A DNA stretch of 64,000 nt, taken from NCBI GenBank assembly GCA_023384135.1, contig JAHDXS010000003.1:378728-442727 (forward strand), read 5' to 3'. Source of the stretch: Alphaproteobacteria bacterium. GTDB lineage: Bacteria; Pseudomonadota; Alphaproteobacteria; Micavibrionales; Micavibrionaceae. Of the stretch, positions 2,943 through 50,071 are shown in pieces. The notes below the pieces were generated by a model. The model was not told the DNA's origin. It saw only the letters and a list, made by a program, of their open reading frames with translations, and made no database searches. The stretch's first letter is position 1, and every line of letters starts with the position of its first letter. The position numbers were made by a program, and so were the translations under genes.

Positions 2943-4709
2943 ATGACTGACGCGATGGATATGCCCCACAACGTGACCGATTTACTCTCGGGAATCCTGC
3001 TGATTCTTGCCGTGGCGGGATTTATCATCCCCGCGCTGCAGATCCGCCGGATATCGCCCGTCATCGGTTATCTCTTCTGCGGCCTGCTTCTCGGCCCGCA
3101 TGCGCTGGGTCTGCTCGCGAAAGATTACCCGCTCATCGCGCCTCTGGTTGTCACGGACACCGGGCTGATCCACCTGTTCGGCGAGCTGGGCGTCACTTTC
3201 CTTTTGTTCACGATCGGGCTGGAACTGACCTTTTCCCGCCTCTGGGATCTGCGCAAATGGGTGCTGGGTATGGGCAGTGCGCAAATTCAGCTCACCGCTC
3301 TGGTGATTGGCGTCACCGCCTGGACATTCGGCAACAGCCTTCAGGTCTCCATCCTGATCGGCGCGGCCTTCGCCTTGTCCTCGACCGCCATCATCATGAA
3401 GCTGCTGGTGGACAGCCACATGATCGCCCGCCCGGCGGGGCAGATCAGCTTCTCCGTCCTCCTGATGCAGGATTTGGCGGTTGTCCCCATCCTCGTGCTC
3501 GTCGGCGTCTTCGCGGGTCAGGGCGAGGGATCGTTGCTAACGCAACTGGCCAGTGCGCTTCTGACGGCGGCGCTGGTCGTGGGCGCGATTATCCTTCTGG
3601 GCAAGAAATTGCTGCGCCCTTTGCTGCGCGCCCTTTCCCCGGCCCAGAACGCGGAATGGATGTTCGCCATCACGCTTCTGCTGGTCATCGGCTGCGCCGC
3701 CCTGACGGAATCCTTCGGCCTGTCGGCGGCGCTCGGCGCGTTCCTCGCGGGGATCCTGATCGCTGAGACCGAATACAGGCACGAGGTTGCCGTGATCCTC
3801 GCGCCCGTCAAAAGCCTGCTGCTCGGCGTCTTCTTCCTGTCTGTGGGTATGGAAACCGACATCGCCGCCGTGCTGGAGCACCCGCTCTGGCTGCCCGCCT
3901 CGGTGATTGGAATTTTTCTGATCAAGGCGGTCTGCTTCTACCCCGTCGCCCGCCTGTTCGGCGCTTCGGCGGGCCACGCGGCGCAGGCTTCGGTTTACCT
4001 TGCCCAGTGCGGGGAGTTCGCCTTCATGGTCATCGGCCTCGCTCTGGCCGGGGGCCTGATGCCCGCCGGGGACGCCCAGTTCTTCCTCCTTGTTTCGGCG
4101 GTCTCTCTGCTGCTCACGCCCCTCACCGTGCGCCTTGCACCGTATGCCGAGCGCCTCATGACCATGGGCCGCGAACAGGCGGCTGAGGGAACAGGTCCGC
4201 CCGGCCACAGGGATATCGAAAATCATGTCATCATCGCCGGGTTCGGCCGGGTAGGGCAGACTTTGGCCCACATTCTCGAAGGGCAGAAAATTCCCTATCT
4301 CGCCATCGACCGCAACGCGGTGCAGGTGTCGGGCTTTCATGCGCAAGGCTATCCGGTCGTGGTCGGCAACGCCGCCCAACCGGCCATCTGGAACCATCTG
4401 AGCGTCGATAAGGCCAAGGCCGTCGTCATCACCATCGACGACTTCTCCGTCACCGAGAATATCCTGCGCTACGTCCGCAGCCGCTGGCCCCTCCTGCCCG
4501 TGATTTTGCGCTCCCGTGATAACGCGGCGATGCAGCGCTACCTTGATGCGGGCGCGACCGCCGTGGTGCCCGAAGCCTACGAATCCTCGCTGCGCCTTGT
4601 AAAAATTCTGCTGGAGAAAACCGGAATAGAGGCAGGCGATGCCGAAAGCATCATCGCCATGCACCGCAAGGAAAGCTACGCGCTTCCCAAACCCGCGAAC
4701 GACACATAA
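2943..4709 (+). CDS. Kef-type cation/proton antiporter (CPA2 family)
   Basis: The 588-residue protein has about twelve hydrophobic segments in residues 15-390, matching the sodium/hydrogen exchanger fold of the CPA2 family (for example GELGVTFLLFTIGLELTFSR). A cytosolic Rossmann-type TrkA-N domain follows from about residue 425, with HVIIAGFGRVGQTLAHIL giving the GxGxxG nucleotide-binding loop. It most likely exchanges potassium or sodium for protons under nucleotide control, like KefB/KefC or YbaL. No C-terminal TrkA-C domain is visible. ATGs also lie 12 and 18 bases downstream of this start. It sits between flhF and flhA but nothing ties it to motility. Confidence 0.88.
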   Translation: MTDAMDMPHNVTDLLSGILLILAVAGFIIPALQIRRISPVIGYLFCGLLLGPHALGLLAKDYPLIAPLVVTDTGLIHLFGELGVTFLLFTIGLELTFSRLWDLRKWVLGMGSAQIQLTALVIGVTAWTFGNSLQVSILIGAAFALSSTAIIMKLLVDSHMIARPAGQISFSVLLMQDLAVVPILVLVGVFAGQGEGSLLTQLASALLTAALVVGAIILLGKKLLRPLLRALSPAQNAEWMFAITLLLVIGCAALTESFGLSAALGAFLAGILIAETEYRHEVAVILAPVKSLLLGVFFLSVGMETDIAAVLEHPLWLPASVIGIFLIKAVCFYPVARLFGASAGHAAQASVYLAQCGEFAFMVIGLALAGGLMPAGDAQFFLLVSAVSLLLTPLTVRLAPYAERLMTMGREQAAEGTGPPGHRDIENHVIIAGFGRVGQTLAHILEGQKIPYLAIDRNAVQVSGFHAQGYPVVVGNAAQPAIWNHLSVDKAKAVVITIDDFSVTENILRYVRSRWPLLPVILRSRDNAAMQRYLDAGATAVVPEAYESSLRLVKILLEKTGIEAGDAESIIAMHRKESYALPKPANDT

Positions 4710-15656: not shown

Positions 15657-16121
15657 CTAACCCTCAATATTCGTGCTCGAACCTGCGCCCGGCGGCGGAG
15701 CGGGGGGCGCGGCGGGGGCGGCCTTTTGGCCGGCCAGCAGCCCGGCGGCCACTTCCTTGTTGATGTTGATCAGAACGCTGATCTTCTCCTTCTGCGGGTC
15801 GGAGAGAATCTCAAGCTCGCGCTTGAAGATGAAATTGGCGAGGTTGATGATGTTGCTCCGCAGATCGTTGGGCCGGTTGCCTTCCGGGTTCTCAAGCGCC
15901 GTGTCGTAGAACAGCATCCAGATCTGCCGGTTATAGACCAGCGTCGCCTCAAGCAGCTCCGGCGTCCGGTTGTCCCAGTCGCGCACGAGGTCCTGCATCA
16001 TGCGCGAAGCCTTGAGCAGCACACGCCCTTCAAGCTCGCGCTGGTCGGGCGTATTCTGCTGCGCGTTCTGGTCATACGCCCCGGCAGCCTGTGAATAGGG
16101 GTTGTTATTTTTTGAGCGCAT
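15657..16121 (-). CDS. flaF: Flagellin biosynthesis regulator FlaF
   Basis: The 154-residue protein contains the FlaF core: NPYSQAAGAYDQN, then ELEGRVLLKASRMMQDL and LVYNRQIWMLFYDTALEN, then LRSNIINLANFIFKREL. In Caulobacter, FlaF promotes flagellin synthesis and secretion and opposes FlbT, which holds back flagellin mRNA. The gene overlaps the end of flbT by 17 bases, so the pair is one operon. The last 30 residues are Ala/Pro-rich and extend past the usual FlaF length of about 115-130. Confidence 0.93.
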   Translation of the reverse strand: MRSKNNNPYSQAAGAYDQNAQQNTPDQRELEGRVLLKASRMMQDLVRDWDNRTPELLEATLVYNRQIWMLFYDTALENPEGNRPNDLRSNIINLANFIFKRELEILSDPQKEKISVLININKEVAAGLLAGQKAAPAAPPAPPPGAGSSTNIEG

Positions 16122-16497
16122 TGTCGATTAATTCCCTCTCATGGTCGATCAGTTGCCGCGCCACCTTCAGAGCCTTGTAATAGGAATCCGAAATAATGTG
16201 GTCGTTGATTTGCATGAAGAAAATCGAGCTCGACGGCGAGGCGGTCTGAATTTCCCGCACCATGTCGAAATATTTCTTGTGATACTCCCTCGGCGCGCGC
16301 GCCAGGTACATACACTGGATCAGGAAATAGATTCTCTTGCACGGCGTATCGGCCTCGTCTTCCTTCATGACGTCTTTTTCACGCAGAATGGGCGCATCCC
16401 CGGCAATCTGAAACCGGGCGCGCTGGGCCCCGTTGGTGATCACGGCCTCCCCGATAAGAATTTTCTCGTTCGGCTTTAAATCGATCACCAGCGCCAT
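16105..16497 (-). CDS. flbT: Flagellin mRNA regulator FlbT
   Basis: The 130-residue product matches FlbT throughout: LKPNEKILIGEAVITNG, then CKRIYFLIQCMYLA and a long helical C-terminus ending in ALKVARQLIDHERELI. In Caulobacter, FlbT binds the 5' leader of flagellin mRNA and destabilises it until the hook is complete. Here the flagellin gene lies 700 bases upstream on the same strand and its leader has a hairpin (18942-18960). flbT is the first gene of the flbT-flaF operon. Confidence 0.94.
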   Translation of the reverse strand: MALVIDLKPNEKILIGEAVITNGAQRARFQIAGDAPILREKDVMKEDEADTPCKRIYFLIQCMYLARAPREYHKKYFDMVREIQTASPSSSIFFMQINDHIISDSYYKALKVARQLIDHERELIDNALKK

Positions 16498-18913: not shown

Positions 18914-18941
18914 AGTAGTACTCCTTTCCTAGGGTGATATA

Positions 18942-18960
18942 CCGGAAAATCCTATTCCGG
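18942..18960 (-). promoter_or_regulatory. Hairpin in the flagellin mRNA leader
   Basis: CCGGAA (18942-18947) and TTCCGG (18955-18960) form a six-base-pair stem with a seven-base loop, 29-47 bases before the flagellin start codon and just upstream of the ribosome binding site. Because FlbT in Caulobacter acts on the flagellin leader, this is a reasonable candidate target. Confidence 0.5.
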
Positions 18961-18975
18961 CCTTAAGACTCTAGA

Positions 18976-19004
18976 ATAATAGCACTTAATTAAAATACCG
19001 TTAA
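18976..19004 (-). promoter_or_regulatory. Flagellin promoter with overlapping CtrA-type box
   Basis: Read leftward, TTAA-CGGTATT-TTAA (19004 to 18990) is a perfect CtrA-type box. TTAACG within it can act as the -35. TATTAT (18981-18976) is the -10 after 17 bases. Overlap of the box with the -35 is the layout of CtrA-activated promoters in Caulobacter. Start near 18969; leader about 56 bases. Confidence 0.55.
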
Positions 19005-19116
19005 ACATTAAATGACCGGGACAAAACTTATTCTGTGTAAATTAAGGGTTTTCAGGCCCGTAAGGCCGGGTGTACGCTCTACGGAAAATCAAGGAAATTA
19101 AGGATTAACGGCGCTC

Positions 19117-21375
19117 ATGGCGGTAAAAAAGGCAAAAAAAGGCTCGAAAACATCCTCGGCGGCGGCAAAACCCGAAAAGCTGGATTACAACCTGTCCGCA
19201 AAGAAAATCGCCGAGCTTGAGAATTCCTTCAAAAAGACCCAGAAACCGGAGCTTTTGACCCAGATCGCCGAACTGTATTTCTCCATCGGCAGCCTGGAGC
19301 CCGCCTTCGCTTTCTTCACGAAGGCATCCACCATAGACCCCGGGAACTATAGCAATTACAAGGGGATCGCAGATTGCCTTGTGATTACGCAGCGGGCGGA
19401 AGAGGCGTTAGAATACTATCGTATGGCCTTGAATCTGAACCCCGAAGCCGAAATCGTCCGCACCAGCTACGGCCACACACTGATGCACCTCAAGAAATAC
19501 GAAGAAGCCGCAAAAATCTACGAGGAAGGGTTGAAATTAAACGACTCGGGTGAGGCCAATAATAATGTCGGCGTCCTGTTGTTCGAGACCAAAAATTATA
19601 AACAATCCGTCGTGTTTTTTAATAAAGCGGTCGAAAAGGACCCGAAGAACAAGAATTTCCGTATTAACCTCGCGCGCGCGTATTTCCGGGGCGAAAAATA
19701 CAACGACGCCTTCTTTACGCTCCACGCCGCGCTAAAGGTGGACCCCGGCAGCGCCTTCATAAAATCCCAGCTCAGCGCGATGGGCCGCCACCTGTCCTTC
19801 TCGACCTTCTCACAGGACCTTAAAGACGCCCTGATCGCCTGCCTGAATATCGAGAACATTGAGCATCACAACCTCTCGGTCGTCTGGCTCCGCCTGTTCC
19901 TGATGGACCCGGCCTACACTTATATTCATAAATTAACGAAGCTCCATAACTACGATGATTTTAAAGGCGAAGCCGACCTTTATAAAATCTGCGCCCTGAT
20001 GTCTGACGATTTCTGCGCGCAAGCGCTGCGGCTGATCTACAATCAGGCCGTCGATTATGAAATTTTCCTCGGCAACCTCCGCCGCCTCGCGGGGGAGCAT
20101 ATAGGGCAGGGTGCCGGTAAAACCGCTTCGTCCAAAGACTCAAAGACGCTCTTTAAAATACTGTGTGCACTGGCTGAAAACTTTTTTGTCCATGAATATC
20201 CCGCCGCCATGTCAAACGCGGAGGAGGGCGCCTTGGGTCCCCTTCGGCAGGAAATTCTGGACATCGGCAAGAACGATCCCGGCCCCTGCGCCCTGCGCCT
20301 CGCCCTTCTGGCCTGTTACGGGCCGCTTCATAAGGAGCAAGCGGAGATCGTGGCGCTCGCCCGCGCGCTGCCCGATGACCTCCACCCCTTCTGGAAAAGC
20401 CTCGTCGCGCTGCAGATCGCCGAACCGCTGGAGGAACTCCGCCTGCGCTCCACCATCCCCGCGCTGGGCCGCCTGCAAAACGAAGTCTCCCTCAAGGTCC
20501 GCGAACAGTACGAGGAAAACCCTTACCCCCGCTGGCGCTACGCGAACGCCCAGGAGGACGAATCCAAAAGCTACCACTTCAAGAAACCCTACGATCTCCT
20601 CATCGCCGGCTGCGGCACGGGCAAACAGGTGCTCCAGGAACGCTATATGTACCCGAACGCCAAAATCACGGCGATCGACCTCAGCCTTTCAAGCATTTCC
20701 TACGCGAAACGAAAGATTCAGGAACTCGGCATCGGCGACGTGGAGTTCATGCAGGCCGACATCCTCGAACTCGGCCAGTTGAATAAAAAATTCGACTTCA
20801 TCGCCTGCTCGGGCGTGCTCCATCACATGCAGGAGCCCGAAGCCGGTCTGAAAGTGCTATTGTCCCTTCTGAAGCCCAAGGGCCTGATGAATATCGGGCT
20901 CTATAGCGAACGCGCCCGCCAAACGGTGGTAAAGCTGCGCAACCTCGTGGCCGAAAAGGGCTGGCAGCCGAATACCGCGGGCATCCACGCCTTCCGTGAT
21001 TATATTAACAACCTCCCGCCCGACCATGAGCTGCGCTACGTCACCCGCTGGCGCGATTATTACTCCATGTCGATGGTCCGCGATCTCATTTTCCACGTGC
21101 AGGAACACCGCTACACCTTCCCGCAGCTGGACGATATGTTCAAACGCCACGGCCTCGCCTTCGTCGATTTCTCGTTCATCTTCCCCGATGTTCTGGCCAA
21201 TTTCCTGCGCAAGCATCCGGGGCCTGAGAATTACCGTAACTTCGAACTTTGGGACGCCTTCGAGCGCAAGCACCCCGAATCCTTCGCCTCAATGTACCAG
21301 CTTTGGGTGTGCCGCGAAGAGGCCCGCGATGAAATCCTCGCCGCCCCGAAAATCATTAATGCGCTGGAGGTTTAA
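19117..21375 (+). CDS. TPR-methyltransferase fusion, possible flagellin modification enzyme
   Basis: The 752-residue protein has a Lys-rich start, about five tetratricopeptide repeats in residues 35-225 (for example ALEYYRMALNLNPEAEIVRT), a helical middle, and a class I SAM-dependent methyltransferase from about residue 485. Motif I is LLIAGCGTG (about 494-502), followed by the acidic loop AIDLS and a DFIACSGVLHHM segment typical of small-molecule or protein methylases. It is divergent from flagellin and shares its 200-base control region. By analogy with TPR-glycosyltransferases that recognise flagellin (FlmG type) it may modify flagellin, but that is inference; the true substrate is unknown. 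Its stop overlaps the next gene by four bases. Confidence 0.85.
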   Translation: MAVKKAKKGSKTSSAAAKPEKLDYNLSAKKIAELENSFKKTQKPELLTQIAELYFSIGSLEPAFAFFTKASTIDPGNYSNYKGIADCLVITQRAEEALEYYRMALNLNPEAEIVRTSYGHTLMHLKKYEEAAKIYEEGLKLNDSGEANNNVGVLLFETKNYKQSVVFFNKAVEKDPKNKNFRINLARAYFRGEKYNDAFFTLHAALKVDPGSAFIKSQLSAMGRHLSFSTFSQDLKDALIACLNIENIEHHNLSVVWLRLFLMDPAYTYIHKLTKLHNYDDFKGEADLYKICALMSDDFCAQALRLIYNQAVDYEIFLGNLRRLAGEHIGQGAGKTASSKDSKTLFKILCALAENFFVHEYPAAMSNAEEGALGPLRQEILDIGKNDPGPCALRLALLACYGPLHKEQAEIVALARALPDDLHPFWKSLVALQIAEPLEELRLRSTIPALGRLQNEVSLKVREQYEENPYPRWRYANAQEDESKSYHFKKPYDLLIAGCGTGKQVLQERYMYPNAKITAIDLSLSSISYAKRKIQELGIGDVEFMQADILELGQLNKKFDFIACSGVLHHMQEPEAGLKVLLSLLKPKGLMNIGLYSERARQTVVKLRNLVAEKGWQPNTAGIHAFRDYINNLPPDHELRYVTRWRDYYSMSMVRDLIFHVQEHRYTFPQLDDMFKRHGLAFVDFSFIFPDVLANFLRKHPGPENYRNFELWDAFERKHPESFASMYQLWVCREEARDEILAAPKIINALEV

Positions 21376-22037
21376 ACCGCCTCGCTCAAACTCTGATCCG
21401 CCCGCGCTTCGGAGAGGCTCAGGCCCCGCACCCGGCTCAGTCCCTTGAGAAAGACGGTATGAACACTCAGCATAATAAGCTCGCCGCCATCCTCCACCAC
21501 GACCGGAACATGCAGAACATCAAGCCCGACCGAGAAAAACGCCAGCCCCGCGAACAGCCCGCACAGCACAAGGCTGCTAAGCCGCTCGGCGTCAGGCACG
21601 GCCTTGAAAACCTTGAAAAACGCCAGCAGCATGATCAGCCCGAAAACCGACAGCGCGATAAACTGCCCGAAATGATCCGCCAGCCCGTAAGGCTCCAGCG
21701 CGTGCCCGGCCCCCTCATGCAGGGAAAAAGCGTTGTCGGTCATCGCCGCGAAATAGACAAACGCAAAGAAACCATAAGTTCCAGACCCCGTCACGCGCCA
21801 CAGCCGCAGGGCCATGAGGCCGCAGACCGCCGTAAGCAGATATTCTAACATCTCGGGAATGCCCCATTCGGTCGAGAGATTCCACGGGCTGGGGGTGCGA
21901 ATGGCCGCAGGCTCCCCAAGGTGGCTGAACGCATCGGCCATATGCCCGGCCAGCAGCGCGGAATCAATAGCCAGTAACCCGGCCAGAAGACAGGTTTCAA
22001 ATCTGTAAGTCCTGAAAAGTCTCAAAAAAACACTCAT
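21372..22037 (-). CDS. Integral membrane protein of unknown function
   Basis: About 221 residues with five to six hydrophobic segments (CLLAGLLAIDSALLAGHM; MLEYLLTAVCGLMALRLW; GFFAFVYFAAMTDNAF; FIALSVFGLIMLLAFF; LVLCGLFAGLAFFSVGLDVL). A histidine and several acidic residues sit near membrane boundaries (SLHEGAGHALEPYGLADHFG). I do not recognise the family. The ATG at 22037 is chosen over an in-frame TTG at 22046; neither has a strong ribosome site. It is convergent with the TPR-methyltransferase gene, overlapping it by four bases. Confidence 0.7.
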   Translation of the reverse strand: MSVFLRLFRTYRFETCLLAGLLAIDSALLAGHMADAFSHLGEPAAIRTPSPWNLSTEWGIPEMLEYLLTAVCGLMALRLWRVTGSGTYGFFAFVYFAAMTDNAFSLHEGAGHALEPYGLADHFGQFIALSVFGLIMLLAFFKVFKAVPDAERLSSLVLCGLFAGLAFFSVGLDVLHVPVVVEDGGELIMLSVHTVFLKGLSRVRGLSLSEARADQSLSEAV

Positions 22038-22263
22038 GACAATCAATCTTTAAAAATAAGTGCGCTTCGGCGCGGGTTATTAATTGCTGCAACGCAATAT
22101 AATTTTCGTAATAAGGGAAACTGCAAAAGAAAATTACTCTCATAAATCAACGGCTTTTGGCAACAACTTTTAGTATAAAATGAAAAAATTCATGCAAGCG
22201 TAGGGGGAAAATGCAGGTTTGAGGCAGATACTGGTAGGGAAGTCAAGCGGGGACAATAAGAAT

Positions 22264-22500: not shown

Positions 22501-24234
22501 TTACCGCAGCTGCAGTAGCTCCTGCGTCATCTGGTCCACGGTGTTGATGACCTTCGTACCGGCGGAATAGGCCCGCTGGGCGACGATCAGTTGCGCGAAC
22601 TCGTCCGCAAGGTCCACGTTGGAGTTTTCAAGCGTAGAGGGCTCAAGGAAGCCCGCGCCGCCCGTTCCGGCCTCACGCAGGTTTTCCTCCCCGGAATCTT
22701 CCGTCTCCGTATAGGCCGTTCCCGAAACCTCGCGCAGCCCGTTCGGGTTGGCGAAGGTGACAAGCGGCAGTTTATAAAGCCGCGTGGTCGCGCCGTTCGA
22801 GAACTGGGCGATCACGAACCCCTCCCGGTCGATCTGCACCCCGGTCCGCAAGCCGAGTTCCGCGCCGTTCTGATCGGAGAACAGAACCGTGTAATCGCTT
22901 GAAAACTGGCTGAAGCTTGAGACGTTGATATCGATGTTTTGCAACTCCGAACCGTTGCCCCAGTTAATGTTGGAAAGCTCGATGTCGATATTCCCCTCAT
23001 TGTCGGGCAGGGCGTTCAGCGTCCCGTCGCCGTTGAAGTTGACGAGGCCGACCGAGAGCGAGTTATTGTTCGGGTCCATGATCCGCATCTGCCACCAGCC
23101 GCGCGGGTTATAGAGCGGGTCACCCGGAAGGAACTGCACGGCGGGGAACTCGCCGCCGCTATAGGGCGGGGAGTCCGCGAACGTACCGTTCGAGTAGTTG
23201 CCCGAGGTGCCGATATCGTCGGAGACGAAGGCGCCGGCGGTGAACCCAAGCTCGGAGAGCGGTGTGCCCACCGTGTTGGCGATGGTCAAAGTCTCCGTGC
23301 CGGTCACGAACTCGTTATGCTGAATGACGATCTCGCCGTTATTCCCGATGAACGCCGTGGCATCCGTCAGCCCCGCGTTAATCGCGTTGATGATATCGCC
23401 GACCGTTTCCACGCCCGTCGCGCCGCCGCCGACTGCGCCGCCGTCATTGACCTCAAGCGTGATGGTCGTAGTGCCGTCATTGACCGTAAACCGGTCGCCG
23501 TCCGTCATGCCGAGATTGGTAATCAGGTTCGTGGCCGCCGTCTGGTTGGCCAGCGTGGAAATCGCTGCCGCCTGCGGCCCGTAGGTCTTGGAGAACTGGA
23601 AGGTCAGGTTCTGCGGGTTGCCCAGTGTATCGTAAACCGTCAATCCTCGGGAGAAGTCCGGCTGCCCGGCCAGAACGGAGGCGAAATCCGCGTCCACCTC
23701 CGCCGCGTCAAGGTTCACGGCCAGCTCCGCCGTCGTCGTCGGACGCGTCAATCCGCCCAGAAACGCAACGTCGATCGGCACCAGCGAGTCCAGATCCCCC
23801 TGGTTGGCGGGCAGGGCGCCGTTCACGTCCAGCGGCCATCCGTAAAGGAAGAACCCGGCGGAGTTTCTGAGGAACCCTTGCGAGTCCTCGCTGAACTGCC
23901 CGTTCCGCGTATAAAGGAACTCGGTCAGCGCGCTGTCGAGCGAGTCCCGCTTCACCGCGAAGAACCCCTTGCCAGAAACCGACGCATCCGTCGAGGATTC
24001 CGACTGCGAAATCGGCCCCTGCTGCGAAACGCGCTGAATGCGGTTCACGGTGACCGTTCCCGGCGAATACCGCGACGTGTTGGTCGAGGTCGTCACAAGG
24101 CTGAAGAACGAAGCTTCCGAGCGCTTGAACCCGTTCGTGTTGACGTTGGCGATGTTGTTGGAGATGATCGCCGTTTTCTGCGACTGCGCAGACAGGGCTG
24201 AAACCCCTGTGAACAATGCTCCGAAAAGTCCCAT
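22501..24234 (-). CDS. flgE: Flagellar hook protein FlgE
   Basis: The 577-residue protein has the hook/rod N-terminal helix (MGLFGALFTGVSALSAQSQK, then ISNNIANVNTNGFKRSEASF) and the matching C-terminal helix (AQRAYSAGTKVINTVDQMTQ, then ELLQLR). It polymerises into the hook. It is longer than E. coli FlgE (402 residues); a middle segment around residues 240-345 (FTVNDGTTTITLEVNDGG, then VGDIINAIN and NGEIVIQHNEF) resembles the flagellin IN motif. It is the last gene of the leftward operon that starts at flgI and is followed by a strong terminator. Confidence 0.95.
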   Translation of the reverse strand: MGLFGALFTGVSALSAQSQKTAIISNNIANVNTNGFKRSEASFFSLVTTSTNTSRYSPGTVTVNRIQRVSQQGPISQSESSTDASVSGKGFFAVKRDSLDSALTEFLYTRNGQFSEDSQGFLRNSAGFFLYGWPLDVNGALPANQGDLDSLVPIDVAFLGGLTRPTTTAELAVNLDAAEVDADFASVLAGQPDFSRGLTVYDTLGNPQNLTFQFSKTYGPQAAAISTLANQTAATNLITNLGMTDGDRFTVNDGTTTITLEVNDGGAVGGGATGVETVGDIINAINAGLTDATAFIGNNGEIVIQHNEFVTGTETLTIANTVGTPLSELGFTAGAFVSDDIGTSGNYSNGTFADSPPYSGGEFPAVQFLPGDPLYNPRGWWQMRIMDPNNNSLSVGLVNFNGDGTLNALPDNEGNIDIELSNINWGNGSELQNIDINVSSFSQFSSDYTVLFSDQNGAELGLRTGVQIDREGFVIAQFSNGATTRLYKLPLVTFANPNGLREVSGTAYTETEDSGEENLREAGTGGAGFLEPSTLENSNVDLADEFAQLIVAQRAYSAGTKVINTVDQMTQELLQLR

Positions 24235-47591: not shown

Positions 47592-48011
47592 ATGAGTTCG
47601 GATATGTTCGGCGCGATGATGGTTTCGGCCAGCGGCATGAAGGCGCAGGGCGCGCGCGTCCGCGTCATCGCCGAAAACGTCGCCAACGCCGATACCACCG
47701 GCAAGAAACCCGGCGACGACCCCTACAAGCGCCAGACCATAAGCTTCGCCAACGAGATCGACCGCGCCACCGGCCTGCAAACCGTAAAGGTGGACCGCAT
47801 CGGCACCGATAAAAACACCGACTTCACCCTGCAATATATGCCCGATCATCCCGCCGCCGACACCAACGGCTACGTCAAGATGCCCAACGTCAACATGCTG
47901 ATCGAGATGATGGACATGCGCGAGGCGCAGAGATCCTACGAAGCCAACCTCGGCCTGATCGAACAGGCGCGCGGAATGATCCTGCGCACGATTGATTTGC
48001 TAAGGGCGTAA
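47592..48011 (+). CDS. flgC: Flagellar proximal rod protein FlgC
   Basis: The 139-residue protein starts with the rod helix (MSSDMFGAMMVSASGMKAQG, then VIAENVANADTTGKKPGDDP) and ends MMDMREAQRSYEANLGLIEQ, matching FlgC. GGAGG precedes the ATG. It follows flgB by 24 bases. Confidence 0.95.
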   Translation: MSSDMFGAMMVSASGMKAQGARVRVIAENVANADTTGKKPGDDPYKRQTISFANEIDRATGLQTVKVDRIGTDKNTDFTLQYMPDHPAADTNGYVKMPNVNMLIEMMDMREAQRSYEANLGLIEQARGMILRTIDLLRA

Positions 48012-48050
48012 GGACAGGGTAAAATCACATGATCTTCGGAGTTCTCCCCC

Positions 48051-48377
48051 ATGCCGGCCGATAAAATCTTCGACACCAACCTCGCCGCGAAGGCGTACGG
48101 AAACTCGCTGAACATCGGCGCGAAGGCGCCCGTGGCCAAAACCCCCGGCGATGACGGCGGCGTGAGCTTCTCCGATTTCCTCAAAAACTCCCTCGAAACC
48201 TCGGTCGATAAGATCAAGGCGGGCGAACAGATGTCCGCCAAGGCCATAACCGGACAGGCCGACGTGACGGATGTCGTTCAGGCCGTAACCGAGGCCGAAC
48301 TGGCCCTGCAAACCGTCGTCGCCCTCCGCGACCGCCTCGTCTCCGCCTATCAAGACATCATGCGGATGCCGATTTAG
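48051..48377 (+). CDS. fliE: Flagellar hook-basal body protein FliE
   Basis: The 108-residue protein has the FliE layout: a flexible N-terminus and the C-terminal helix pair ADVTDVVQAVTEAELALQTV, then LRDRLVSAYQDIMRMPI. FliE joins the MS ring to the rod. In related genomes fliQ comes next; here the DUF3800 gene intervenes on the opposite strand. Confidence 0.95.
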   Translation: MPADKIFDTNLAAKAYGNSLNIGAKAPVAKTPGDDGGVSFSDFLKNSLETSVDKIKAGEQMSAKAITGQADVTDVVQAVTEAELALQTVVALRDRLVSAYQDIMRMPI

Positions 48378-48423
48378 TTGTTTTAAGCCGCCCGCAAAAA
48401 ATACTGAAATCAACTAACAAAGC

Positions 48424-49530
48424 TTAGATTTTATTCAAAGCGTCCTTAAGAGCCAACAGAGCTTCTCTCGGGCACTTAAAACGTATATTTGTTCCATTCG
48501 GCATATTAATTTTCAGTGCGCACTCGCTTTGATCAGAGATTAGAGACACATCAGAGGCGGTTATGTTTATACTAGGCTCGCTTTGTCCATAAATTTTCTT
48601 GGCTTGTATCAAAATTAAAGCTGCTTCCATGAGAAGATATTCGTTAAAAGCTAGAGCAAAAACTTTATTATCTAATCCATCAAAAACGATGTAGGCATCT
48701 TTCCCACTCCCCTCTGCATACCCCTTCGTGCTCATAACTTGTATGATGGGAATGTTCACGCCATTCTCTGTGTAATAGGTAATGGGACCCTCCCTATGAA
48801 ATTCGAGAAGAGCGGGGTTAGAGCCTCTTCTGCCTAATGGCCAAGTATCAACAACTGTAAATTTCGTCTCACCCTCTAAGGTAATGAATAAAATATCATG
48901 ATGATGCTCCATAAGACTCAGAAAATCTTTTCGCGCTGGTCGTTTCTTACTATAGTGCTGGTCTTTCGCGAATTTAGTGCTCTGCCAAGCCAAAAGATCA
49001 GCCGCTTGCAATAGCCGGACTTTTTGTTTGTCACCAAAAGTTAGCGATGACGAATAGTCTGCAAGTTTGCGCGCAATATGATTATAGGCACTACCCTTAT
49101 TTTTATGACCCGCCTCAAAAAAATAAGCCACATCGCTCTTGATGCGACAAAAGTCCCGAAACGCATCTAAATGATCTACACAAGTTGAAACAAGAGCGCT
49201 GTATATATCGGGCGTGCCGTCTGGCAACATATATTGGTCTTCTTTGGCCACAAAAGAAAAACCACAAAGAGTATACTTTTTTATCAATGCTATCAGTTTT
49301 CTGACAATCTGATCTCTTTCGTCGCGCGCTATATTTTTAAACACCCCGTTACCATGCGCACAGTCAACCATATGAAAATATGGTATTTTGTGGTGATTGA
49401 GAACTTTCTCCCACTCTGCATCCATTGCTTTGGCTTTTTCTTCTTCCAAGAAATAGCCAGAGATACAGAAAATTTTTGGGTCTTCTTCAAAGCTGCCGCT
49501 TTCATCGAAATAGCCTTCCCAAGAGGTCAT
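48424..49530 (-). CDS. DUF3800 protein inserted in the flagellar operon
   Basis: The 368-residue protein begins SWEGYFDESGSFEEDPKIFC, the DUF3800 start (Y-x-D-E-S-G); this family is thought to have an RNase H-like fold and often travels on mobile DNA. A conserved VRLLQAADLLAWQ segment follows near residue 180. The C-terminal 150 residues look like a separate domain I cannot name. The gene is clearly AT-richer than its neighbours, lies opposite to the operon, has its own promoter (49548-49576) and AAGGGG ribosome site. No integrase or flanking repeat was found. It looks horizontally acquired. Confidence 0.8.
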   Translation of the reverse strand: MTSWEGYFDESGSFEEDPKIFCISGYFLEEEKAKAMDAEWEKVLNHHKIPYFHMVDCAHGNGVFKNIARDERDQIVRKLIALIKKYTLCGFSFVAKEDQYMLPDGTPDIYSALVSTCVDHLDAFRDFCRIKSDVAYFFEAGHKNKGSAYNHIARKLADYSSSLTFGDKQKVRLLQAADLLAWQSTKFAKDQHYSKKRPARKDFLSLMEHHHDILFITLEGETKFTVVDTWPLGRRGSNPALLEFHREGPITYYTENGVNIPIIQVMSTKGYAEGSGKDAYIVFDGLDNKVFALAFNEYLLMEAALILIQAKKIYGQSEPSINITASDVSLISDQSECALKINMPNGTNIRFKCPREALLALKDALNKI

Positions 49531-49547
49531 GAATAAATCCCCTTTGG

Positions 49548-49576
49548 ACTATAAAGTACCAAGCATCCTATGAAAA
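49548..49576 (-). promoter_or_regulatory. Sigma-70-type promoter for the DUF3800 gene
   Basis: Leftward, TTTTCA (49576-49571), 17 bases, TATAGT (49553-49548). Start near 49541, which is close to the ATG at 49530, so the leader is very short. Confidence 0.5.
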
Positions 49577-49701
49577 ATTCCAGAATCATGATGGAGCGTA
49601 ATTTAGCATCTCACATCGAATTTAGGTACGGGAAACACACTATTCGGAAATCTCTTTGAAGATGTATCCGAAAAGGGCGCTGGCGAATAACCCTTCCTCA
49701 A

Positions 49702-49729
49702 CCCTCTCACCCGCATGCGGGGGAGAGGG
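49702..49729. repeat. Palindromic repeat before fliQ
   Basis: CCCTCTC (49702-49708) and GAGAGGG (49723-49729) flank the self-complementary CCGCATGCGG (49711-49720). The rest of the 49531-49807 gap holds the DUF3800 promoter; I see no clear promoter for fliQ. Confidence 0.6.
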
Positions 49730-49807
49730 CAGGGAGAGGGGGATAACTCCGCCCCAACCCCCGCCGCGCAATAGTCCCGCCGCCGCCTTTCTGCTACCCT
49801 TTCCCCC

Positions 49808-50071
49808 ATGACGGAATCCGAAGTCATCGACACCGTGCGCGAGGCGCTGCTCATCACCATCCAGATTTCCCTGCCCGTGCTGCTGGTGGGGCTGCTGGTC
49901 GGCGTGACCATCGCGCTGATTCAGGCGCTGACGCAGGTACAGGAGATCACGCTCGTCTTCGTGCCGAAAATCGTGGCGATCTTCCTCTCCCTCTTTTTCT
50001 TCCTGCCCTTCATGATGAATACGCTTGTAATCTTCATGCAGGAGCTGGCGCAGAAAATCATCGGCGGCTAG
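49808..50071 (+). CDS. fliQ: Flagellar type III export protein FliQ
   Basis: The 87-residue protein has the two FliQ helices (EALLITIQISLPVLLVGLLV; KIVAIFLSLFFFLPFMMNTL) joined by the conserved LIQALTQVQEITL. It forms the export gate with FliP and FliR. It is cut off from fliE by the inserted DUF3800 gene, so it needs either read-through or a new promoter. Confidence 0.96.
   Translation: MTESEVIDTVREALLITIQISLPVLLVGLLVGVTIALIQALTQVQEITLVFVPKIVAIFLSLFFFLPFMMNTLVIFMQELAQKIIGG

Follow-up and report, generated by a model that had tools for sequence, protein, structure and literature searches.

In the window, the 64,000-nucleotide stretch of DNA analysed here, a gene encoding a TPR array fused to a SAM-dependent methyltransferase faces the flagellin gene, an arrangement that our analysis confirms. 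We assign a probability of roughly 0.55 to the reading that its product works in the cytoplasm as a TPR-guided protein methyltransferase, with flagellin as its main client in the genus, and that it represents one version of an exchangeable enzyme slot. Under this proposal, the TPR superhelix would capture monomeric flagellin ahead of its export, in the manner of the TPR domain of FlmG, and a SAM domain of the type found in Rv2067c and bacterial protein lysine methyltransferases (PKMTs) would transfer methyl groups to it, the acceptor most likely being a side-chain amine, for which lysine is the precedent. In the slot next to the flagellin gene, the TPR arm would be kept and combined with differing catalytic domains (GT41, sulfotransferase, pyruvyltransferase or methyltransferase).

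Phages, predators, hosts and surfaces all encounter flagellin, and modifying it alters motility and recognition, effects that the proposed methylation may share. FlmG provides the precedent for a TPR arm able to direct a glycosyltransferase to flagellin; should this arm bear methyl-, sulfo- or pyruvyltransferases in related genera, flagellin modification would be modular and readable from the neighbouring gene. If the reading is true, there would also be a second way of methylating flagellin, independent of FliB, as well as natural domain swaps for probing what the TPR arm recognises.

The flagellin locus and the fusion protein

The TPR-methyltransferase and flagellin genes are divergent, with 203 bp between their start codons; flbT and flaF follow the flagellin gene, while flgE is found beyond the TPR-methyltransferase gene (Table 1). 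A genome search recovers a single flagellin in the 2.8-Mb genome, as the preliminary description had supposed, the second, weak Flagellin_N match (C5:94605) being a protein of 403 residues, the size of FlgL. Orthologs in both sister species (68-73% identity) face a flagellin start at a contig end, where both species seem to carry more than one near-identical flagellin copy, breaking the assemblies; the divergent pairing is kept in all three species of the genus.

Table 1. Features of the flagellin locus and of the TPR-methyltransferase protein, in window positions.
Feature	Position	Strand	Details and basis
flaF	15657..16121	-	154 aa; FlaF E 1e-24
flbT, flagellin regulator	16105..16497	-	130 aa; FlbT E 1e-43
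Sole flagellin gene of the genome	17213..18913	-	566 aa, 8 lysines; Flagellin_N E 7e-10, genome search
Intergenic region, 203 bp, divergent start codons either side	18914..19116	.	three-species alignment
TPR-methyltransferase fusion gene	19117..21375	+	752 aa; ORF call, Pfam TPR and Methyltransf families, AlphaFold pLDDT 91.1
TPR superhelix, residues ~24-227	19186..19797	+	predicted structure; VIA-align
Helical linker, residues ~228-460	19798..20496	+	predicted structure; family alignment
Methyltransferase module, residues ~461-748, PKMT/Rv2067c type	20497..21360	+	PDB profile search, fold search
QYEENPYP motif, residues 464-471	20506..20529	+	counterpart of YDEVPYP in Rickettsia PKMT2
SAM-binding motif I GCGTG, residues 498-502	20608..20622	+	sequence alignment
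flgE hook gene, other border of the flagellin-side slot	22501..24234	-	Pfam Flg_bbr_C, FlgE_D2

The two genes had also been described as sharing a control region. They do have the intergenic stretch in common, but across the three species its flagellin-side half is well conserved and its methyltransferase-side half is not, and this one-sided conservation gives no sign of common regulation. No shared promoter was found, the sole consensus site being directed toward flagellin, and sigma-54 matches are no more frequent than chance; on these grounds we set aside both a shared promoter and sigma-54 control.

Two further features of the window were recorded. A 224-residue hydrophobic protein, probably a membrane protein and with no Pfam match, is encoded at 21372-22046 on the minus strand, opposite to the TPR-methyltransferase gene, with whose end its gene shares 4 bp; it is not conserved in one sister species, where the gap is only ~260 bp. 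GC content dips to 0.477, against ~0.59, at 48001-50000 around a DUF3800 gene (48424-49530), which is possibly acquired DNA.

Within the fusion protein, Pfam places TPRs at residues ~45-220 (TPR_2, E = 6e-22) and a SAM methyltransferase at residues 497-600 (Methyltransf_31, E = 1e-19); Pfam and NCBIfam combined extend these spans to ~33-220 and, for a class I SAM methyltransferase, ~487-632, in both cases through generic models only. The AlphaFold model, computed with 42 family members as input, is confident (pLDDT 91.1, pTM 0.87) and agrees with the domain matches on a TPR array joined to a methyltransferase: an unbroken TPR superhelix is followed by a helical linker and then by an alpha/beta methyltransferase that is extended at its C terminus. 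The superhelix matches designed TPR proteins, the TPR domain of OGT and MamA (Z ~20, VIA-align). The linker is conserved across the TPR-methyltransferase family, with E315, R322 and Y401 invariant in the alignment, as are Y465, E466, P469, Y470 and P471 of the QYEENPYP motif; invariant or near-invariant positions of the family include QYE..PYP.W, GCGTG, GVLHH, Y596-S597 and FH.QE.

Nearest relatives among known enzymes

By sequence profile and by predicted fold, the methyltransferase module is nearest to protein lysine methyltransferases, ahead of small-molecule methylases. The closest solved sequence to the profile of the module (A2) in a PDB profile search is 8HKR (E = 9e-35), whose identity as the Mycobacterium tuberculosis lysine methyltransferase Rv2067c was confirmed; it is followed by one uncharacterised protein (3mgg) and then by PKMT2 (E = 4e-16) and PKMT1 of Rickettsia. 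In a fold search run with the module modelled on its own (pLDDT 89.6), the five top matches are all protein lysine methyltransferases, although a shared fold alone is no proof of substrate. Rv2067c is matched with Z = 22.9 (rmsd 3.3 over 266 residues, 24% identity) and PKMT1/2 with Z = 16.9-19.3, while other methyltransferases reach at most 16.1, the PKMT1 entry 5dnk (16.9) being tied with the next rows; Foldseek returns the same ranking.

These rankings bear directly on whether the protein is instead a small-molecule methyltransferase, with TPRs serving oligomerisation only and flagellin a neighbour by chance. GVLHHM-type motifs do occur in BioC and UbiG as well, and models of those enzymes match weakly, but small-molecule methylases fall below PKMT and Rv2067c by both profile and fold, and the placement of the gene is far from chance (see below). 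We regard this explanation as very improbable.

Rv2067c, the best match of the module in both sequence and fold (PDB 8HKR), is a dimeric H3K79 methyltransferase that acts on free histone H3 (PMC10739865) and, unlike the window protein, has no TPR arm. Its SAM-facing Q228 appears to be replaced by E663, invariant in the TPR-methyltransferase family, a correspondence counted along the profile alignment under an assumed offset of three residues between entry and paper numbering. The Rickettsia enzymes PKMT1 and PKMT2 (5DNK, 5DPL), which methylate lysines of OmpB, and KmtA (PMC11784438) have bacterial surface proteins as clients. These enzymes have in common with the window protein the methyltransferase fold and a Y-D/E-E-x-P-Y motif ahead of the SAM domain (5doo alignment), which reads YDDAPY in the PKMT of genome G011. 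They also lack a TPR arm, and their PF10119 and C-terminal winged-helix (PF21782) domains went undetected in the 752-residue protein, neither being among the 25 Pfam families listed at E 0.001.

The closest parallel in design is FlmG, the Caulobacter crescentus flagellin O-glycosyltransferase, in which the TPR domain binds flagellin and the glycosyltransferase domain does not (PMC7591256). Both proteins combine an N-terminal TPR domain with a C-terminal transferase domain, and TPR-GT41 genes hold the same place beside flagellin in relatives; FlmG modifies flagellin in the cytoplasm, and by analogy the TPR-methyltransferase may do the same. The C-terminal domain of FlmG is of the GT-B type, whereas the window protein has a SAM methyltransferase and matches no glycosyltransferase family in Pfam. 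It is therefore FlmG-like in design and, without a glycosyltransferase domain, outside FlmG proper. The idea of a parallel to FlmG, with methylation in place of glycosylation, gains from this design and from the recurrent pairing with flagellin, and is qualified by the presence of the family in genomes without flagella (see below).

FliB, the Salmonella flagellin lysine methylase, is a [4Fe-4S] enzyme with a CX4CX3CC motif (PMC8598068), and resembles the window protein in the proposed outcome only, flagellin methylation. FliB has no recognised fold and no Rossmann fold, whereas the window protein has a classical SAM fold; the CX4CX3CC motif is absent from its 752 residues, and at E 1e-8 the matched families do not include the FliB family model NF038110. 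On the Fe-S motif and the fold we rejected a FliB relative, and the suggestion that the architectures differ is borne out. None of 58 related genomes has a FliB family match, in a search in which no control genome matched either. The open-access literature on TPR methyltransferases or sulfotransferases and flagellin yields only papers on FlmG and FliB as relevant, and no report of a TPR-methyltransferase at flagellin, an absence that is weak evidence.

Family distribution and the slot beside flagellin

Of 385 alphaproteobacterial genomes, 60 hold the family at E <= 1e-60 when searched with the module profile, and family scans extend to Gammaproteobacteria, Betaproteobacteria, Magnetococcales, Desulfobacterales and one Verrucomicrobia record; phage records give no match that would point to a phage origin. 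Many genomes contain multiple copies in unrelated places, and most copies in flagellated genomes sit away from flagellin. Since a Flagellin_N match is absent in 17 of 50 holder genomes, SAR11 single-cell genomes included and some assemblies being partial, the family as a whole is not flagellin-specific.

A subset of the family is nonetheless tied to flagellin, and its clustering far exceeds chance. Among the 54 strong family loci in 58 genomes of the order, 9 are no more than 2.5 kb away from a flagellin, where chance would predict 0.45 (Poisson P ~1e-9, or 5e-7 if the genus enters as a single case); these genomes were picked for closeness to the window, and the fairer general rate comes from a class-wide draw outside the order, where 4 of 60 loci are flagellin-adjacent against ~0.64 expected (P ~0.004, a rough figure that takes 59 loci and assumes both the genome size and the number of flagellins). 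The pairing turns up again in further genera and in additional families of the class, and we rejected a chance neighbourhood on conservation together with the adjacency counts. Presence of the fusion in genomes without flagella, which that description had named as counting against its proposal, is real but does not undo the above-chance clustering of the flagellin-adjacent members.

On the family tree, flagellin-adjacent genes fall on several branches inside one large clade that also contains SAR11 genes, requiring 8 label changes against a shuffled mean of 13.5, with at least two changes forced by well-supported branches. The adjacent members are thus polyphyletic, which means that pairing with flagellin originated or was retained on more than one occasion; with its members scattered on the tree, a single flagellin-specific subfamily is unsupported.

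Reading flagellin-gene neighbourhoods across the order, we find that the place beside flagellin, mostly between the hook gene and flagellin, holds either no enzyme or one of the TPR-armed types. A TPR-methyltransferase occupies it in the genus of the window and in G004, G022, G025 and G034; a TPR-GT41 of the FlmG type in six genomes (G009, G014, G026, G044, G053 and G056), GT41 being beside flagellin in 6 of the 7 genomes that bear it; a TPR-sulfotransferase in G033, G040 and G050 and, with a methyltransferase alongside, in G031, G027 and G011; and a TPR-polysaccharide pyruvyltransferase of 1015-1170 residues in G043 and G047, where Pfam confirms it, and probably in G055, judged by length, TPR match and position. 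In G011, a PKMT-type protein lysine methyltransferase (MethyTransf_Reg, PKMT_2nd) lies between two flagellin genes. Outside the order, loci of the Sneathiella type place a TPR-methyltransferase and a TPR-sulfotransferase in the midst of flagellin, flbT and flaF genes. That a single place exchanges catalytic domains while retaining a TPR arm is the best reason to think that the slot enzymes act on flagellin. We put at about even odds the broader proposal that the exchangeable TPR-armed set at this locus modifies flagellin and that its member in the window is a non-FliB flagellin methyltransferase of the PKMT/Rv2067c type.

Several of these neighbourhoods merit description in their own right. 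TPR proteins of ~1000-1170 residues directly adjoin flagellin in three genomes from one family of the order (L192:6354-9866 and L198:6262-9309, minus strand; L206:3-3353, plus strand); in those of L192 and L198 a polysaccharide pyruvyltransferase domain is fused to the TPRs, and proteins of this type are possible flagellin pyruvylation enzymes. In several genera, TPR-sulfotransferases adjoin flagellin, at L174:8144-9748, L061:11634-16467 and L227:6691-8376, and also in L178, L188 and L202 (flagellin at 4264, 4707 and 5289, respectively). Tyrosine was rejected as the sulfate acceptor on account of the very few tyrosines in the partner flagellins, and this scarcity makes a glycan or Ser/Thr the likelier acceptor. 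At L227:8382-10013 (minus strand), a PKMT-type lysine methyltransferase (MethyTransf_Reg, PKMT_2nd) is flanked by two flagellins, even though the main flagellin of that locus contains just one lysine.

Other copies of the family have different neighbours. The second TPR-methyltransferase of the window's genome (L123:8916-11813, on G000:C4) lies near an orphan 134-residue, rod-like Flg_bbr_C protein, an arrangement that is syntenic in both sister species. On the same contig, a 324-residue TPR-only ORF (L126:4277-5251, plus strand, equivalent to G000:C4:362276-363250) stands where the sister species hold full TPR-methyltransferases, and looks like a remnant after loss of the methyltransferase part. 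In two SAR11 loci (L042 and L046), from genomes without a flagellin match, a family member lies ~2-3 kb from a gene judged by eye to be porin-like, with a TPR-GT41 gene ~4.7 kb further on, which hints at another surface client.

Such contexts invite the explanation that the protein is a general TPR-guided methyltransferase with a non-flagellin protein client (e.g. hook, membrane or cell-surface), its position beside flagellin being inherited or accidental. The occurrence of the family in flagella-free SAR11 and other genomes speaks for it, as do the second copy (C4:158921) beside the orphan Flg_bbr_C protein, kept in synteny in the sister species, and further copies far from flagellin in G001 and G002. 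We nevertheless consider it quite unlikely, given the enrichment beside flagellin, the scatter of the pairing on the tree and the exchange with FlmG-type genes in the same slot.

Candidate methyl acceptors

If flagellin is the client, the methyl group could go either onto a side chain of the protein or, by O- or N-methylation, onto a sugar that it carries, TPR guidance to flagellin being the same in both cases; the latter is the main rival to our reading. The composition of the flagellins is in its favour, as they are rich in Ser/Thr and poor in lysine: the window flagellin has 8 lysines in 566 residues, of which 3 fall within the central 386, against 69 Ser/Thr in that same central part, and in G011 the main flagellin next to the PKMT gene contains just one lysine (0.2% of 562 residues). 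Flagellins that adjoin a TPR-methyltransferase show no lysine position peculiar to them; K76 and K513 are common there, yet present elsewhere too. The remaining enzymes of the slot (sulfotransferase, pyruvyltransferase and GT41) are typical builders or decorators of glycans, and in L109 the genes run in the order NTP_transferase, GDP-mannose 4,6-dehydratase, TPR-methyltransferase, TPR-GT41, flagellin.

Against glycan methylation, the module is nearest to protein lysine methyltransferases and not to sugar methylases, and searches of the window genus return no match to GT41 families, to NeuB families or to Maf (PF01973, for which only archaeal controls matched), so that no known flagellin glycosyltransferase is evident there, although one of another family is possible. 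With none of these three matched, though for Maf only archaeal controls matched, we rejected a nonulosonic-acid glycan in this genus. Methylation of a flagellin-borne sugar seems to us rather unlikely, and for the window genus methylation of the flagellin protein itself is favoured.
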